Part shown: positions 2,817 through 38,521 of the stretch, piece by piece
Position numbering within the stretch: the stretch's first letter is position 1
How the letters are laid out: each line of letters starts with the position of its first letter
Notes under the pieces: model-generated
What the model was told of the DNA's origin: nothing
The model's input: only the letters and a program-made list of their open reading frames with translations
The model's database searches: none
Position numbers and translations under genes: made by a program
Assembly (NCBI RefSeq): GCF_023015905.1
Contig: NZ_JALKBD010000021.1
Coordinates: 1-64,000, forward strand
Length of the DNA stretch: 64,000 nt
Direction: 5' to 3'
Source of the DNA: Arenibacter sp. F20364
GTDB taxonomy: Bacteria > Bacteroidota > Bacteroidia > Flavobacteriales > Flavobacteriaceae

Positions 2817-5800
2817 TTATTGGGAGGAGGTCACCTCCGGTATTAGAACTTTAACAAACTCCCCTACAATTCTCATTTCTGCAGCATTTTCTTCATTTAT
2901 AATGATGCTTTTATGAGTATTATCATAAGAATTTGGCCTTAAAACAATGGATTGATGTTGCCAATTATCTTCGTTAATTACCTTTTCACTTGAATAGGTC
3001 TTTATGGTAAAAGCAGAATTAAAATCTTGGTCTTGGATGTCCAAGTTTTCTACTAAAACAATTTTTCCATTTCTACTGCCACCTATATATCTTTTAAATA
3101 AGCAAATTGAACCATTGGGGATTACTTTGTTCATGGATTCACCAAAAATCCTACAGGCAAAATAATCATTTGGATTGCTATTTTCAGGACCTTCTATTAA
3201 AGTGAAATCTTTTTCTGATTGCATTTCACTGAACGACCCGGCTGCAGCGTAAAAATCATAAAGCGGTATAGGATTTTTTAACTCCTGTTCAAATTTAAAA
3301 GTTCCTTGTGCTGGAACGGACTTATCTTTCTTTTCCAAATAGGTTTCCATGACTTTTACCTTCTCATGTAAATAGTTATACATCGTAGCTATAACGGGAT
3401 TGGCCAATAGGAATCGAATTTTTACGACCGAAATTTGCTTGCCATTATCATTGCTCATTGTGGTTTGTTGAACCTGATTCAAATCTGGACTTATGTTTCC
3501 CATATAGTAGAAGTCCATTCCTTCATCATTGTTTTTTTTGATAAATAAAGGAAGACGGATTGCCCCATTATGGCCTAAAATGGATTGAACATCCTTGCTA
3601 TCAATTTTTCTGTTGGACTTTGACATCCAATCAAATTCCTTATTATTTACAAATTCATCCTCATATTTTGTCGATTCTGAAATGTGCTCCTCTTTATGAT
3701 AATTCACAAATATTGGACAATGAGCATTATCGGGACTTACTAAATAACCACCCACATTTTGAGCAACAGGGTTTTCCAATACATTTAATATTCTAAATAC
3801 ATCTTTACGAGAGTATTTCCTGTAAAGTACAAAGCCATTCTGCCAACTATCAGTGTCAAATAATTTGTTGAATTCATAGATTGAATAATTAGTAGAATCG
3901 AGCAGAAATTTTTTAAAATGTTCCTGGTTTAAATAGGAAAGAAACGTGCTTGAAAACACAAAATTTCCATTATCAATTCTAAGAATATCCAAATCATAAA
4001 TCTCTTTTGCCGAAAGTAACTTACCTCCTTTTTTTTCTCTAATAAATTCAAAATTTAAATTAGAAACGCAGGATTTAATGGTTTCGTCAGAAATAGAATA
4101 GGAATACTTATATAAAATGTGTTCTTTTAAATCGTCAAGGGATAGTTTACCAGACTCTATTAATAATTTTAGAATCAAACTTTCCTCAACTCTTTTGGAA
4201 TTATTTATTTCTTTAGAGAATAACTCCAAAAGTTTGACCTGTTGTTTTGATAATTCACAGGAGTGTTCTTTCTCAATTTTGAGAATGAAATTGTAATAGG
4301 AATTGGAATAATCCACGTATAAATATGGGTCACGAGAACCATGTTCAATAAAATCCATCATCATTGGAATTCTACCCAACTTGAATTTTAATAGGCTGTA
4401 GTCTTTCTTTAAATCTTTTAATAACTGCATGTTGGCAGAATCAATGGACCGAAATATTCTTTCTTTGGTGATTTCATCGAAATTAATGGTCGAAGCCCCT
4501 GGGATCATCCTGCTGCCTTCTGTAATTAATTTCCTCAAGGAGTCTTTGTTATAGGAAGTATCACCATACAGTGCAACGGGTATTAAATAGTTGTTTTCAT
4601 AATTTCCAATAAAATCAATTACCGTTAAATAACCCTTTCCTTCAACCTTTCTCAGCCCTCTTCCTAATTGCTGAATAAATATAATGGCTGATGCTGTAGG
4701 TCTTAGCATAATAATCTGGTTGATTTTTGGAATATCAATCCCTTCATTGAAAATATCAACAGTAAATATGTAATCTAGTTTTTCACTTAAATTATCCGAT
4801 TCTAACTTTTCAATGGCATTTGCTCTCTGTTTTTCAGAGCTATCCCCGGTCAAAGCAACTGTTTTAAATCCTTTTAAATTGAATAAAGTGGATAATTCAA
4901 TTGCCTCATTTTTTCTAGAACAAAAAATCAGACCTCTGGTTATTCCATTGTCGCTTCCGTAGAAACTTGCCTGCTCAATGATTCTATTGACTCTTTCACT
5001 AGAAATTAAGAGGTTAAAATCTGTCTTATTGTCTACCTCATTGTCATCAATTAATAAATCAGTTACGCCGTAATAATGAAAGGAACTGAGCATTTCCTCT
5101 TCCATTGCTCTGTTCAATCTTATTTCATAGGCAATGTTATGGTCAAATAATTGAAAGATATCATTCCCATCTGTCCTCTCGGGAGTGGCCGTCATTCCTA
5201 ATAGGAATTTAGGTTCAAAGTAATCTATTAATCGTAAATATGAATCCGCACCTGACCTATGGGTTTCGTCAATAATTATATAATCAAAATGGTCTTTCGA
5301 GAAGTTATCTAAATGTCTGTACTTTGAAATAGTTTGAATGGTTGAAAACACAAAATCACAATCCAATTCTCTTTTTTCACCTGAAAACAGCCCCATGGTT
5401 TTATCCTTGCCAAAAACACTTCTAAACGTATTTAATGAATTTTCTGCAATGGTTAACCTATGAACCACAAACAATAATTTTTGAGGTTTGAAAGCTTTGG
5501 CGTCAAACGCTGATAAATAAGTCTTACCTGTTCCAGTGGCAGAAATTATCAACGCTTTATTTTTATTGTCCGCGCGTAAATTTTTCAGGTTTTTCAATGC
5601 TTCTCGTTGCATTGAATTTGGAGTTATTTCGGCTTGGGGTTCAGCTAAGTTTTCGAGATTGTTATTCCTAGATAAAAGAAATTGTTTCTGATATATTTCT
5701 TCATACTTCAAAATGAACTCTGCGGTTATGGGTGTTCCTTTTTTAAAGTCAGCTTGAAATTCTTGCAGTACTTTTTCGACAATGCCACTTTCATCTAATG

Positions 5801-6275
5801 CCGATACTTTAATATTCCATTCTTTGTTGGTGGATAAGGCCTGAGCAGTTAAATTGCTGCTGCCAACAATTAAATTATAATGCTTCTTGTTTTTAAAAAT
5901 GTACCCTTTTGCATGCGCATTTCCTGTGGTGGCAATTTTAAGTTCTATATTTTTGAATTGACCTAATCTTTTAAGGGCTTCCGGTTGGGTGAAGTTTAAA
6001 TATTGAGAGACCAATATTTTGCCCTTTATGTCCCTTTTTTCGAGTTCTTTAAGCTTGTTGATTATTGTGGCAACGCCACTTGTGGTCACAAATGCTACGG
6101 AGATATAAAACTGGGTACAATTTTCGAGCTCATGGATAATGGATGAAAGAACCTTTTTAGGTGGATTTTTTTGATTGACAAGCAATTCTGGTTGGTAATC
6201 AACATTGGATAAAAAGGTTTTGTCCACATACCCGGTTTGCAAACTGTCATTAAAAATTAGGGTAAGCTTATCCAT
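2817..6275 (-). CDS. PLD nuclease / SF2 helicase / DUF3427 / LexA-like S24 peptidase fusion
   Basis: An 1152-residue multidomain protein. Residues about 40-160 form a phospholipase-D-like nuclease domain with HAK (H121, K123) and GSSNLT. Residues about 220-590 form a superfamily II helicase: Walker A SATGTGKT (about 245-252), DETH (about 336-339), GMTATPERTDG, and motif VI QQLGRGLR. A DUF3427-type region follows and ends near LLANPVIATMYNYL. The last 150 residues are an S24 (LexA/UmuD) domain: PLYDFYAAAGSFSE, then GESMNKVIPNG with nucleophile S1047 and probable general base K1092 in FTIKTY. The AAAG Ala-Gly pair (1012-1013) lies 35 residues before the serine, as in LexA. The start ATGGATAA overlaps the stop of the Nudix gene, so translation is coupled. 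Role is inferred as genome defence or DNA damage response; no defined system name can be given. Confidence 0.85.
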   Translation of the reverse strand: MDKLTLIFNDSLQTGYVDKTFLSNVDYQPELLVNQKNPPKKVLSSIIHELENCTQFYISVAFVTTSGVATIINKLKELEKRDIKGKILVSQYLNFTQPEALKRLGQFKNIELKIATTGNAHAKGYIFKNKKHYNLIVGSSNLTAQALSTNKEWNIKVSALDESGIVEKVLQEFQADFKKGTPITAEFILKYEEIYQKQFLLSRNNNLENLAEPQAEITPNSMQREALKNLKNLRADNKNKALIISATGTGKTYLSAFDAKAFKPQKLLFVVHRLTIAENSLNTFRSVFGKDKTMGLFSGEKRELDCDFVFSTIQTISKYRHLDNFSKDHFDYIIIDETHRSGADSYLRLIDYFEPKFLLGMTATPERTDGNDIFQLFDHNIAYEIRLNRAMEEEMLSSFHYYGVTDLLIDDNEVDNKTDFNLLISSERVNRIIEQASFYGSDNGITRGLIFCSRKNEAIELSTLFNLKGFKTVALTGDSSEKQRANAIEKLESDNLSEKLDYIFTVDIFNEGIDIPKINQIIMLRPTASAIIFIQQLGRGLRKVEGKGYLTVIDFIGNYENNYLIPVALYGDTSYNKDSLRKLITEGSRMIPGASTINFDEITKERIFRSIDSANMQLLKDLKKDYSLLKFKLGRIPMMMDFIEHGSRDPYLYVDYSNSYYNFILKIEKEHSCELSKQQVKLLELFSKEINNSKRVEESLILKLLIESGKLSLDDLKEHILYKYSYSISDETIKSCVSNLNFEFIREKKGGKLLSAKEIYDLDILRIDNGNFVFSSTFLSYLNQEHFKKFLLDSTNYSIYEFNKLFDTDSWQNGFVLYRKYSRKDVFRILNVLENPVAQNVGGYLVSPDNAHCPIFVNYHKEEHISESTKYEDEFVNNKEFDWMSKSNRKIDSKDVQSILGHNGAIRLPLFIKKNNDEGMDFYYMGNISPDLNQVQQTTMSNDNGKQISVVKIRFLLANPVIATMYNYLHEKVKVMETYLEKKDKSVPAQGTFKFEQELKNPIPLYDFYAAAGSFSEMQSEKDFTLIEGPENSNPNDYFACRIFGESMNKVIPNGSICLFKRYIGGSRNGKIVLVENLDIQDQDFNSAFTIKTYSSEKVINEDNWQHQSIVLRPNSYDNTHKSIIINEENAAEMRIVGEFVKVLIPEVTSSQ

Positions 6276-6663
6276 TCATTACTAATTTCTCAACAATTGG
6301 AATATCTGCTGCTGCCCAATCTAATCCTTCTAATTCTGAAGAGGCCAGCCATTGGTATGCTATATGCTCTGTTAATTGCACTGTAGGATCTTCACAAGAA
6401 CAAATAAAACTGTACATGGTTAGGGCAAAATCAGGATATTGATGTTTAACTGTAAGGTATTGCTTTTCTGTCTTGATGGTCATTTTTAATTCTTCTTGAA
6501 CCTCTCTAATGATAGTATCTTCGAGTGTTTCCCCATTTTCTATTTTACCGCCTGGAAACTCATATTTCTTTGAAATATAATTATACTTATTGGCACCTCG
6601 TTGTACACACAGGATTTTATTATCGTGTTTTATAACTGCAGCTACTACACTAATTTCCTTCAT
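6268..6663 (-). CDS. Nudix (MutT-like) nucleotide pyrophosphohydrolase
   Basis: A 131-residue protein of the size of MutT/8-oxo-dGTP diphosphatase-type enzymes. The Nudix box is present from about residue 39: GKIENGE, seven residues, then REVQEELKM; it fits GX5EX7REUXEEXGU except that the late glycine is K. The N-terminus VVAAVIKHDNKILCVQR is the usual first strand pair of the fold. The 3' end overlaps the helicase gene by 8 bp (ATGGATAA), so the two form one translationally coupled unit. It probably hydrolyses a modified or canonical nucleoside triphosphate; in this context it may alter nucleotides during defence or repair, which is inference. Confidence 0.85.
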   Translation of the reverse strand: MKEISVVAAVIKHDNKILCVQRGANKYNYISKKYEFPGGKIENGETLEDTIIREVQEELKMTIKTEKQYLTVKHQYPDFALTMYSFICSCEDPTVQLTEHIAYQWLASSELEGLDWAAADIPIVEKLVMNG

Positions 6664-6886: not shown

Positions 6887-7255
6887 CTATTCTGTCTTAA
6901 CTTTATTTTTAAACCATTTTATATATTCCTCCTGATTCCGATCATACCATTCACTTGTGATAAGATATCTGGAATTCTTATACTTAATAGGGGCAGCATA
7001 ATACCTGGTATATTCGCCGATAGTTCTATTTTCGTTTATTGAAAGATTTTCATCTACCAATTTCAGAACAGGATAATTTAAGTTAAAGAAGATTTTACTA
7101 TAGTTATCCTGGGCCATTTTCTTTACCTCCATTTCAGATATCAATTCCAATTCTAAAATCTCAGGTAAAGTTGCCCTAACCAACATCCCTATTTTCAGTT
7201 TATTCAATTCTGAAAAAGGGGCGCGAATAATTTCATATAATTCTTCTTTAGCCAT
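6887..7255 (-). CDS. Hypothetical protein (122 aa) upstream of the Nudix-helicase pair
   Basis: I do not recognise the family with confidence. The protein is soluble, without signal peptide or membrane segment, mixed alpha/beta by composition, and ends with a Lys-rich tail. The C-terminal part ITSEWYDRNQEEYIKWFK looks like a structural motif (strand, helix, aromatic residues). It is on the same strand as the Nudix and helicase genes, 223 bp upstream of them, in equally AT-rich DNA, so it could belong to the same accessory segment. A separate promoter for the pair is likely, given the gap. Function not assigned. Confidence 0.5.
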   Translation of the reverse strand: MAKEELYEIIRAPFSELNKLKIGMLVRATLPEILELELISEMEVKKMAQDNYSKIFFNLNYPVLKLVDENLSINENRTIGEYTRYYAAPIKYKNSRYLITSEWYDRNQEEYIKWFKNKVKTE

Positions 7256-7485: not shown

Positions 7486-7785
7486 TCAGGGCTTGCCCTG
7501 AGGTTTAATACCTTTTATTCTAATATTCCCATCAACAACTTCAATGGGGCCTACAAGGCCCAAAATATGTTGTAATAGATATACAGGGCTTTCTTTTAAG
7601 CGTTCTTTAAACTCCTGTCTTAAGGCTATTAAATACAGAGCTTGTTGGTGTACCCCTACAATACCGCATTTAACTTGTCTATTGTAAGACTCCACCAAGA
7701 CTTCCAGTGTGTTGGCCTCAAATCCTTTTTTGTATTCTGCAATGGTGGTTTGGTCTTTTTCCCTGGCTGTATGTATGTGTTCCAT
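7486..7785 (-). CDS. Hypothetical protein (99 aa)
   Basis: A small soluble protein of unknown function with a plausible start: MEHIHTAREKDQ. The middle (LVESYNRQVKCGIVGVHQQAL) is predicted helical, and the C-terminus carries a short strand region VVDGNIRIKG. There is no signal peptide and no known motif. The overlapping plus-strand frames in this area lack protein-like composition. It sits alone, 153 bp from the MBL/rhodanese gene on the same strand. Confidence 0.5.
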   Translation of the reverse strand: MEHIHTAREKDQTTIAEYKKGFEANTLEVLVESYNRQVKCGIVGVHQQALYLIALRQEFKERLKESPVYLLQHILGLVGPIEVVDGNIRIKGIKPQGKP

Positions 7786-37001: not shown

Positions 37002-37181
37002 ATGGCATTTTCATATTCGAAGGATGTCAATTTAAATAAGGTTTGCTCACAGACCTACCATCTGGCCTATGCGAGCTCCAGCTTCGATCTAGAAATATCG
37101 ATCAAGGATATCCGTGAGAACAAAGTACAGTCTATACCCCATTATTTTGCCATAAATCCCAACATTTCCAATGGTTTTTAA
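37002..37181 (+). CDS. Possible small or truncated ORF (59 aa)
   Basis: An ATG at 37002 after an A-rich stretch (AAAAAAAGTA) gives 59 codons containing KDVNLNKVCSQTYHLAY and ending in NPNISNGF, then TAA at 37179, overlapping the convergent integrase stop by 4 bp. Composition is protein-like, but the family is unknown; it may be the tail of a lost gene. Confidence 0.25.
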   Translation: MAFSYSKDVNLNKVCSQTYHLAYASSSFDLEISIKDIRENKVQSIPHYFAINPNISNGF

Positions 37182-38521
37182 GAATTTAAAACCGCATCCA
37201 AAGCATCATCGGCATCTTTATGGATAAAATTAGCCTGATACATGATGGTCGTTTTTAAATCGCTATGCCGATATAGTTTTTGTAACATTAGGGGCGAAAT
37301 GGTGTCCCCTGCGATATTACCAAAAGAATGGCGGGCAATATGGTTGGATAGGTTTTTTGTAATCCCACATTTTTCGGCAATCGCCTTTAAGTATTTATTA
37401 AGTACAGCGGTTCCATTACGGGTCTTTACAAATACATCCCGCTTACTATTAGGATTCGCTTTTTTTAAATAGGGAAAAATAAAATCCTTATTTGACTGGC
37501 GCAACGGTCGATAAAAATCCAATATCCCCTTGACCTGATCCGGAATTTTAAGGCTCAATGGCTTTTCGTTCTTGTTCATGGTATAATAGAGACGTCCATC
37601 CATCAAATCCGACCATTTCATTTGCAACACGTCCGAAATCCTAATTCCGGCAAAATAGTAAGAGAACAACCACACATTACGGGTGTGCCACATAGCCGAA
37701 TCTTTCTCCAATTCCGCATTTTCAATACGCTTTATTTCTTCTCTTGTCAAACCGATTTTTTGTGTTGGTTTTATTCGTATACGCTCTTTTTCTCCTGCAA
37801 AAGGATAGTGTTTGGTTTCCACGATACCTTCTTTTATGGCCGCATTAAAGAGGGTGCGAATATAAATAAGATGATTGGTAACGGTTCTGGTCTTATGATC
37901 TAGATAAGAAATACAGAACACTTTAAAGTTACTTAGAAATGCCTCGGTAATGTCTTCAAAATAGAGCGAGGTTTCTTTACCAAATTCGCCTTTTACATGG
38001 CCCAAGAAATTATATCCAAACTTTCTGGACTGACCTACCCGATTTCGTCGCCGGTCTATAATTCCATTGATGACTTGTTTTCGCTCTTCAAATCTTTTCC
38101 ACTTTAAAAACTCACGGATGTTAAACAACATTGAAAGTTCCCCTTTACAGGTGGAAAATGAACCTGACTGAAATTTGTTTATTACACGTTGCGACCCAAA
38201 TTGAAAAAACGAAACCGTTCGACCTTTATGCTTTGCTTTGTTCTTGATTTGTTTACTAGAAATGAACTCCTTTGACCCTTCCGCTTCTAGTGCGATACTA
38301 TCGACCTCGGTCAATTTTTTTAGTAGATAATTATTCAACCTTGCTGAATTGGCGTGGGATTTTTTAACCTTACCCAAATCTTTGTCCCAATCCTTTTCCA
38401 AAATATATTGACCTGTAAATATGTATCGTGTCTTTCTATTTTGGGTAATTCGAACGGCCAATGGAAAAGTGCCATCCTTCTTTTTATCATGTTTCCAAAG
38501 CACTATCTTTATCGAGGCCAT
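37178..38521 (-). CDS. Tyrosine site-specific integrase of the island
   Basis: A 447-residue integrase. The N-terminal Arm domain (about 1-60, FPLAVRITQNRKTRYIFTG) is the Bacteroidota type, followed by a SAM-like core-binding domain (about 165-270) and the catalytic domain (about 270-440). The catalytic residues are in place: Arg in AGIRISDVL, H-x-x-R in HIARHSFG, His in YRHSDL and the nucleophile Tyr in TTIMYQ. It lies 170 bp inside the right att repeat and reads away from it. It should catalyse insertion at, and excision from, the tRNA-fMet 3' end. Confidence 0.92.
   Translation of the reverse strand: MASIKIVLWKHDKKKDGTFPLAVRITQNRKTRYIFTGQYILEKDWDKDLGKVKKSHANSARLNNYLLKKLTEVDSIALEAEGSKEFISSKQIKNKAKHKGRTVSFFQFGSQRVINKFQSGSFSTCKGELSMLFNIREFLKWKRFEERKQVINGIIDRRRNRVGQSRKFGYNFLGHVKGEFGKETSLYFEDITEAFLSNFKVFCISYLDHKTRTVTNHLIYIRTLFNAAIKEGIVETKHYPFAGEKERIRIKPTQKIGLTREEIKRIENAELEKDSAMWHTRNVWLFSYYFAGIRISDVLQMKWSDLMDGRLYYTMNKNEKPLSLKIPDQVKGILDFYRPLRQSNKDFIFPYLKKANPNSKRDVFVKTRNGTAVLNKYLKAIAEKCGITKNLSNHIARHSFGNIAGDTISPLMLQKLYRHSDLKTTIMYQANFIHKDADDALDAVLNS

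Follow-up and report, generated by a model that had tools for sequence, protein, structure and literature searches.

A SauUSI-type restriction enzyme with a LexA/UmuD-like S24 tail and an overlapping Nudix gene: a possible type IV system with built-in self-protection

How does a cell live with a nuclease that attacks modified DNA? Type IV restriction enzymes have no protecting methylase and, to our knowledge, how cells tolerate nucleases of this kind is little understood. The question is raised by a two-gene operon at 2817..6663 on the minus strand of a 64,000-nucleotide stretch of Arenibacter sp. F20364 (contig NZ_JALKBD010000021.1, positions 1 to 64,000; hereafter the window, whose numbering is used for this locus), and this one operon offers two candidate answers to self-protection from a type IV nuclease. 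At 2817..6275 (−), it encodes a 1152-residue SauUSI-type restriction enzyme (PLD nuclease, SF2 ATPase, and DUF3427/SRA) with a C-terminal S24 domain, as assigned by Pfam, PADLOC, and PDB matches, and at 6268..6663 (−) a 131-residue Nudix hydrolase of the MutT/NudG type. The two genes overlap by 8 bp (6268..6275, −), and an earlier sequence-only reading of this DNA had placed both open reading frames (ORFs) and their overlap correctly. We tentatively interpret the operon as a type IV restriction system that carries two devices for its own protection, the Nudix enzyme and an S24 fuse that serves as an off-switch, and assign this interpretation a probability of about 0.42.

A PDB search matched the large protein to SauUSI (PDB 7clg; E 1.3e-222), with residues 2–966 aligned to 7clg 2–948, and the PADLOC mREase_IV model matched residues 1–969 at 777.8 bits. 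Judged by its sequence, the protein is a full-length relative of SauUSI, a type IV restriction enzyme that depends on 5-methylcytosine or 5-hydroxymethylcytosine (5mC/5hmC); this places the core in a known kind, which the sequence-only reading had not recognised. Pfam found PLDc_2, ResIII (142.4 bits), Helicase_C, DUF3427 (264.2 bits), and Peptidase_S24 in the protein. The PLD nuclease domain (residues 47–176; 5748..6137, −) carries an HxK pair, H121 and K123, that is invariant in 40 family sequences and aligned with the HAK of SauUSI, whose catalytic pair is His-119/Lys-121 (PMC7913695). It is followed by the SF2 ATPase/translocase (residues 217–542; 4650..5627, −), with Walker A ATGTGKT at 246–252 and DETH at 336–339 assigned by Pfam and alignment, and by DUF3427 (residues 686–969; 3369..4220, −), which overlaps the coupler and the SRA-fold target recognition domain of SauUSI. 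SauUSI itself has 953 residues, is active without an S24 domain, and acts as a dimer through its nuclease domains (PMC7913695). It cuts DNA with m5C and hm5C (Table 1, PMC3874153) and, by analogy, the window enzyme's target is probably 5mC/5hmC DNA.

Beyond this core, Pfam placed the S24 domain after DUF3427 via a linker, with no winged-helix DNA-binding domain as in LexA. The linker is probably flexible (residues 973–998; 3282..3359, −), with a predicted local distance difference test score (pLDDT) below 50 in the full-length AlphaFold model. The Peptidase_S24 match covers residues 1005–1139 (2859..3263, −) at 28.8 bits, above the curated Pfam cut-off of 23.3. An AlphaFold model of residues 969–1152 had a mean pLDDT of 72.4 and a predicted template-modelling score (pTM) of 0.69, and in a Foldseek search of it against the PDB, LexA or UmuD structures took every one of ranks 1–17 (3k2z first, E 1.3e-6); an S24 profile run against PDB sequences gave LexA as its best match at E 0.028, not significant alone. 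By this model, the tail has the LexA/UmuD fold. The C-terminal LexA/UmuD-like module claimed in the sequence-only reading is borne out by these results, as is, for the fold, the structural comparison with LexA and UmuD that it had proposed.

The predicted catalytic residues are conserved. Among 56 proteins with S24 (that of the window, 52 of the SauUSI type, and three of the SLFN type), Ser1047 (codon 3135..3137, −; GESM), Lys1092 (codon 3000..3002, −; FTIK), and Ala1011 are kept in 56/56, Ala1012 and Gly1013 each in 55/56, and the Ala-Gly pair in 54/56, so the homologues keep the very residues whose loss had been named as refuting a self-cleaving module. In the 37 rows of a further alignment (A4), which spans three kinds of scaffold, the Ser-Lys dyad is invariant, and so is Ala1011 at the P2 position of the predicted cleavage site A1011-A1012|G1013 (3237..3245, −, placed by conservation); the host's UmuD-like protein has Ser there. 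Taken together, sequence and model support well the competence of the tail for self-cleavage. The exact 35-residue distance from Ala to Ser to which the sequence-only reading had pointed does not hold as a rule: the spacing ranges from 35 to 38 in relatives (among the 37 rows, 35 in 12, 36 in 21, and 38 in three, with one protein, L006, lacking the Gly), and we dropped it as a signature.

Alternatively, the tail might be a docking or dimerisation domain that binds RecA filaments or pairs enzymes, with self-cleavage incidental or absent. The Foldseek matches to the S24 model include LexA-RecA and UmuD-RecA filament complexes, as a docking role would have it, and SauUSI works as a dimer; its nuclease domains already provide the dimer contact, however (PMC7913695), and conservation of Ser and Lys in 56/56 and of Ala-Gly in 54/56 proteins goes beyond what docking needs. 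We regard a purely docking role as improbable.

The second candidate device is the Nudix enzyme. A scan of named genomes used six peptide patterns, all in the SauUSI protein, and found 74 SauUSI-type relatives, of which 66 loci include the 5′ end of the SauUSI gene. Because one of the six patterns lies in the S24 part, the scan favours S24-bearing relatives and overstates their share, but it does not bias the Nudix share. A Nudix gene is present at 66/66 of these loci, upstream within 170 bp in 65 and downstream in the other (L073), and it overlaps the SauUSI gene by 8 bp in 43/66, exactly as in the window, and by 5 bp in 8/66. The tight coupling to a MutT-like Nudix gene proposed earlier is supported by these counts. 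Both ends of the SauUSI gene and S24 are present at 50 of the 66 loci (in two of which, L044 and L049, the gene is split between frames), both ends without S24 at 11, and five are cut at the 3′ end. Since the 11/11 S24-less relatives with both ends also have the Nudix gene, pairing with Nudix is independent of S24. At L061, where the SauUSI gene lacks its 5′ part, upstream DNA is present and no Nudix gene was found in it.

A second sample, 395 genomes of Bacteroidota (the phylum of the window) in which Nudix matches were taken at E ≤ 1e-30, gave 33 related Nudix matches in 32 genomes. Every one of the nine matches that exceed 180 bits has a strong DUF3427 (SauUSI-type) gene as its neighbouring ORF, and nine weaker ones are placed, by coordinates alone, 2–3 kb upstream of genes for a lower-scoring class of DUF3427 protein of ~1047 residues. 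Of the ten strong DUF3427 matches in this sample, nine are full-length, and six of these carry S24; the remaining one, in G380, is a fragment whose 3.6-kb contig has no Nudix match.

The window Nudix matches PADLOC PDC-S07 (PDLC04899) at 155.6 bits over residues 1–128 of 131, and its nearest solved relative is 3gwy (Q5LBB1, Bacteroides fragilis), with 65/127 positions identical (51%). Its Nudix box, GX5EX7REXXEE, lies at residues 39–58 and lacks the final Gly, as does that of 3gwy. Q5LBB1 hydrolyses 5-methyl-dCTP and 5-hydroxymethyl-dCTP with kcat/Km values of 4.8e6 and 4.4e6 M−1 s−1, respectively, and is about 50-fold less active on 5-OH-dCTP (PMC5158307); E. coli NudG and the MazG-like DCTPP1/RS21-C6 are described as 5-methyl-dCTP hydrolases too. 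Because 3gwy hydrolyses the 5-methyl and 5-hydroxymethyl forms of dCTP and SauUSI cuts m5C/hm5C DNA, the substrates of the window Nudix are likely, by analogy with its 51% identical relative, to be the triphosphate forms of the same bases its nuclease would attack. The PDC-S07 match, the relative that acts on 5-substituted dCTP, and the S24-independent pairing all go beyond the sequence-only reading.

A plainer account would have the Nudix enzyme be a general 8-oxo-dGTP sanitiser of the MutT kind, or a passenger with no link to the nuclease, and would take the S24 domain for a relic of accidental fusion. Its best NCBIfam match is indeed TIGR00586 MutT, although at 84.6 bits this falls below the 97.9 cut-off. 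With pairing at 66/66 loci, an overlap of 8 or 5 bp in 51 of them, a closest solved relative that prefers 5-substituted dCTP (PMC5158307), and strict conservation of the S24 catalytic residues, we consider this account very improbable.

The S24 family is not confined to SauUSI. A profile of the domain matched 18 of the 395 genomes: six matches are SauUSI fusions, nine are fusions to SLFN-g3 helicases (L097 and L103 tested by Pfam, the others by alignment or matching ends), two are fusions to type I HsdR, and one (L096) is cut by a contig end. The SLFN-g3 fusion of G316 (L105) is split into two frames. A GIY-YIG domain scores above the Pfam cut-off on the SLFN-g3 fusions of L097 and L103 and below it on those of L059, L071, and L150. 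The HsdR fusions stand in operons with HsdM (by Pfam, L094), an HsdS-sized gene, and PtuA-like (tested in L094) and PtuB-like (tested in L095) genes; the Septu-like PtuA/PtuB pair lies between the HsdS-sized gene and the HsdR with its S24 tail (L094 4036–12719; L095 1838–10570). In 398 genomes from the phylum to which a Neptunomonas metagenome-assembled genome belongs, five S24 matches were found, namely the SauUSI of that genome and four SLFN fusions. An S24 family common to SauUSI, SLFN-g3 helicase, and type I HsdR scaffolds is new, and the sequence-only reading had not noticed this sharing.

The SLFN fusions have a pyrophosphatase-type neighbour of their own. By tblastn, MazG-like sequence lies beside 16/16 SLFN-S24 genes with context present (the nine of the 395-genome set plus L059, L071, L111, L149, L150, L151, and L152), the match in L149 being partial (67 codons); all six MazG-like genes run against Pfam were positive (L059, L071, L103, L150, L151, and L152). 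At L047, where the gene is cut by the contig start, no MazG gene was found. The paired MazG-like genes may act on substrates other than 5-methyl-dCTP. At two loci with an adjoining MazG-like gene, the N-terminal part of the SLFN-g3-S24 protein has no Pfam match at E 0.001 (L151 237–2711; L152 5053–7443). A 296-genome sample gave seven long SLFN relatives and one broken fragment; one of the seven has no S24 yet keeps an adjoining MazG gene, and S24 is thus optional on SLFN helicases too. Two loci, L059 and L071, carry SauUSI and SLFN systems side by side, the SauUSI of L059 being broken.

A tree of 33 domains set the 31 fused S24 domains apart from the host's LexA-like and UmuD-like rows (support 95/96), with 14/15 SauUSI tails in one clade (99/99; L030 lies outside) and the two HsdR tails in another (100/97). 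The separate branch of fused domains is provisional, because there are just two outgroup rows, one of them very long. Among ten hand-picked neighbours of S24 fusions, PADLOC matched HamA of Hachiman at 289.9 bits and, weakly (35–55 bits), AriA/AriB and RdrA, which suggests that the fusions lie in defence islands. The neighbour regions with PADLOC matches are L059 11388–12218, L071 10985–12836, L099 3146–4099, and L102 554–2962.

How might the parts work together? We infer self-cleavage, RecA dependence, degradation, the Nudix substrate, and the restriction specificity from relatives. As in SauUSI, the SRA domain would bind 5-methyl- or 5-hydroxymethylcytosine in invading DNA, and the enzyme would then translocate and shred the DNA with its PLD nuclease. 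The Nudix enzyme would destroy modified nucleotides matching the nuclease's target bases. Should DNA be broken, RecA filaments would load on it and stimulate the S24 domain to cut its own chain at A1012|G1013; the released nuclease would end in -DFYAAA, similar to the host tmRNA tag GENNYALAA, and would be destroyed by ClpXP. The outcome would be restriction alleviation carried within the enzyme itself. Latent ClpXP degrons are described beside the cleavage sites of LexA-like proteins (PMC5742171), and ClpXP of E. coli degrades type I HsdR in restriction alleviation (PMC12707154). The invariance of Ala at P2 in the 37 rows, a position where the host's UmuD-like protein differs, points the same way. 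Next to a UmuC-like gene the host carries a UmuD-like one, and it also encodes a LexA-like protein (the names UmuC and LexA were given by eye); RecA-dependent self-cleavage is thus probably available in this cell. Elsewhere in the same genome (contig C99; L180 1–2420), a LexA-like HTH-S24 gene (209 residues) lies directly upstream of a CD-NTase-like gene (343 residues) and a further gene in a CBASS-like arrangement, by eye. Both the LexA-type self-cleavage module and the Nudix coupling, the two elements of the earlier interpretation, are retained in this scheme.

The same cut could also work in the opposite direction, with intact S24 keeping the nuclease quiet and RecA-stimulated cleavage freeing an active SauUSI core in infection or damage. 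Cleavage is known to activate UmuD, and the chain left by a cut at 1012/1013 contains the whole SauUSI-like part, a part that resembles the active, S24-less SauUSI of 953 residues (PMC7913695) and the 11 both-end relatives that lack S24. The full-length model shows no readable inhibitory contact and, with a pTM of 0.42, is neutral either way. On the other side, the fragment end is Ala-Ala and degron-like, and type I HsdR, whose activation upon DNA damage would be self-destructive, bears the same module. We rank the off-switch first and hold the on-switch to be rather unlikely; of the two outcomes named in the sequence-only reading, releasing or switching the nuclease, we favour switching, to the off state.

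Several observations weigh against an off-switch joined to pool cleaning in a type IV enzyme. At the cleavage site, Ala at P2 and P1 is also found in ordinary LexA, and in the host LexA-like protein the presumed site follows Ala-Cys, so the Ala-Ala end need not be a degron; L006 has Ser for G1013 and L047 has Cys at P1 (A1012). Residues 1010–1013 have pLDDT below 50 in the tail model, which does not place the site in the active site, and the full-length model, at its pTM of 0.42, is too uncertain to show autoinhibition or the domain arrangement. S24 is missing from 11/61 loci with both ends present, so the switch would be optional. On the Nudix side, 15/33 matches in the 395 genomes adjoin no DUF3427 gene (G094 and G177 have DUF3427 on another contig), the assayed relative Q5LBB1 is not known to adjoin a SauUSI gene, and the two HsdR fusion loci showed no Nudix or MazG-like sequence by tblastn. 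In the core, the Glu that ends the H(X)K(X)4E motif of SauUSI is Lys128 in the window protein; because this column is not invariant across the 40 family members, which include some that lack S24, the Glu may not define the family. Finally, no m5C methyltransferase (PF00145) was found in the host genome, yet SauUSI hosts show no clear avoidance: such enzymes occur in 3/9 other SauUSI genomes versus 28/63 genomes of the set that have neither SauUSI-type nor SLFN-S24 genes.

If the S24 part of the proposal is true, SOS-type self-cleavage would directly switch a nuclease, beyond the control of transcription or of a polymerase subunit, and would have been adopted again by scaffolds unrelated to one another; the Nudix match would connect what a nucleotide-pool enzyme hydrolyses with what a restriction enzyme targets. 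A wider reading, possible though somewhat doubtful, would make S24 a portable, RecA-read self-destruct module over at least three helicase-nuclease scaffolds (SauUSI, the SLFN-g3 helicases, mostly with GIY-YIG, and type I HsdR), with Nudix or MazG-like pyrophosphatases purging the modified deoxynucleoside triphosphates that would expose the cell's own DNA to attack. A portable S24 with paired pyrophosphatases of two unrelated folds would, if true, be a general solution to the autoimmunity of modification-dependent restriction.

The G+C content of the window is 32–34% at 3–7 kb, and because flanking kilobases vary from 35 to 47% (43–44% at 1–2 kb, 47% at 8–9 kb, and 35–41% farther up), recent acquisition of the locus is only weakly suggested. 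Two genes upstream of Nudix (6887–7255 and 7486–7785) gave no Pfam, PADLOC, or NCBIfam match at E 1, and a 447-residue gene at 37178–38521, distant from the operon, resembles Bacteroidota tyrosine recombinases by eye. Nothing pointed to phage or prophage as the source of the fusion: the C-terminal 184 residues had no match in 50,697 phage records and, in a narrow search with the six short peptide patterns, two viral-contig stretches matched one pattern and neither encoded a relative. One of 72,556 plasmid records matched, a Halomonas SLFN-type protein with helicase and S24 in different frames. No description of the S24 fusion was found in the open-access literature searched, and mention elsewhere is possible; a term search of the main texts of PMC3874153, PMC7159879, PMC7913695, and PMC12839542 returned neither S24 nor LexA.

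Each part of the system has known counterparts. The window protein shares its PLD nuclease, SF2 ATPase, coupler, and SRA-type DUF3427 with SauUSI (PDB 7clg), which ends at residue 953 and has no S24 tail; the PADLOC mREase_IV model likewise stops before the S24 domain. The Nudix partner belongs with Q5LBB1 and E. coli NudG, MutT-like enzymes that both hydrolyse 5-methyl-dCTP, and differs from them in that its gene overlaps a restriction gene and its activity is predicted; PDC-S07, which it matches, is a candidate model in PADLOC. The tail has the fold, the Ser and Lys, and the Ala-Gly site of LexA and UmuD, and here it sits C-terminally on a restriction enzyme rather than on a DNA-binding domain or the UmuD arm. 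The SLFN-g3-S24 proteins with MazG-like neighbours found here share the C-terminal S24 family and a pyrophosphatase-type gene alongside, and differ in having a GIY-YIG or unassigned N-terminus, another helicase, and another pyrophosphatase fold. CMoRE, a GIY-YIG type IV enzyme for 5hmC/5ghmC, likewise uses GIY-YIG in modification-dependent restriction, which may hold for the GIY-YIG/SLFN-g3/S24 proteins; it is a single component, and the text available for PMC12923530 mentions no helicase, MazG, Nudix, or LexA. In the alleviation of type I restriction by EcoKI, a translocating helicase-nuclease is destroyed by ClpXP when host DNA is endangered (PMC12707154), as is proposed here; the available text of that paper mentions no self-cleaving domain on HsdR, whereas in the window enzyme the trigger would be in the protein.

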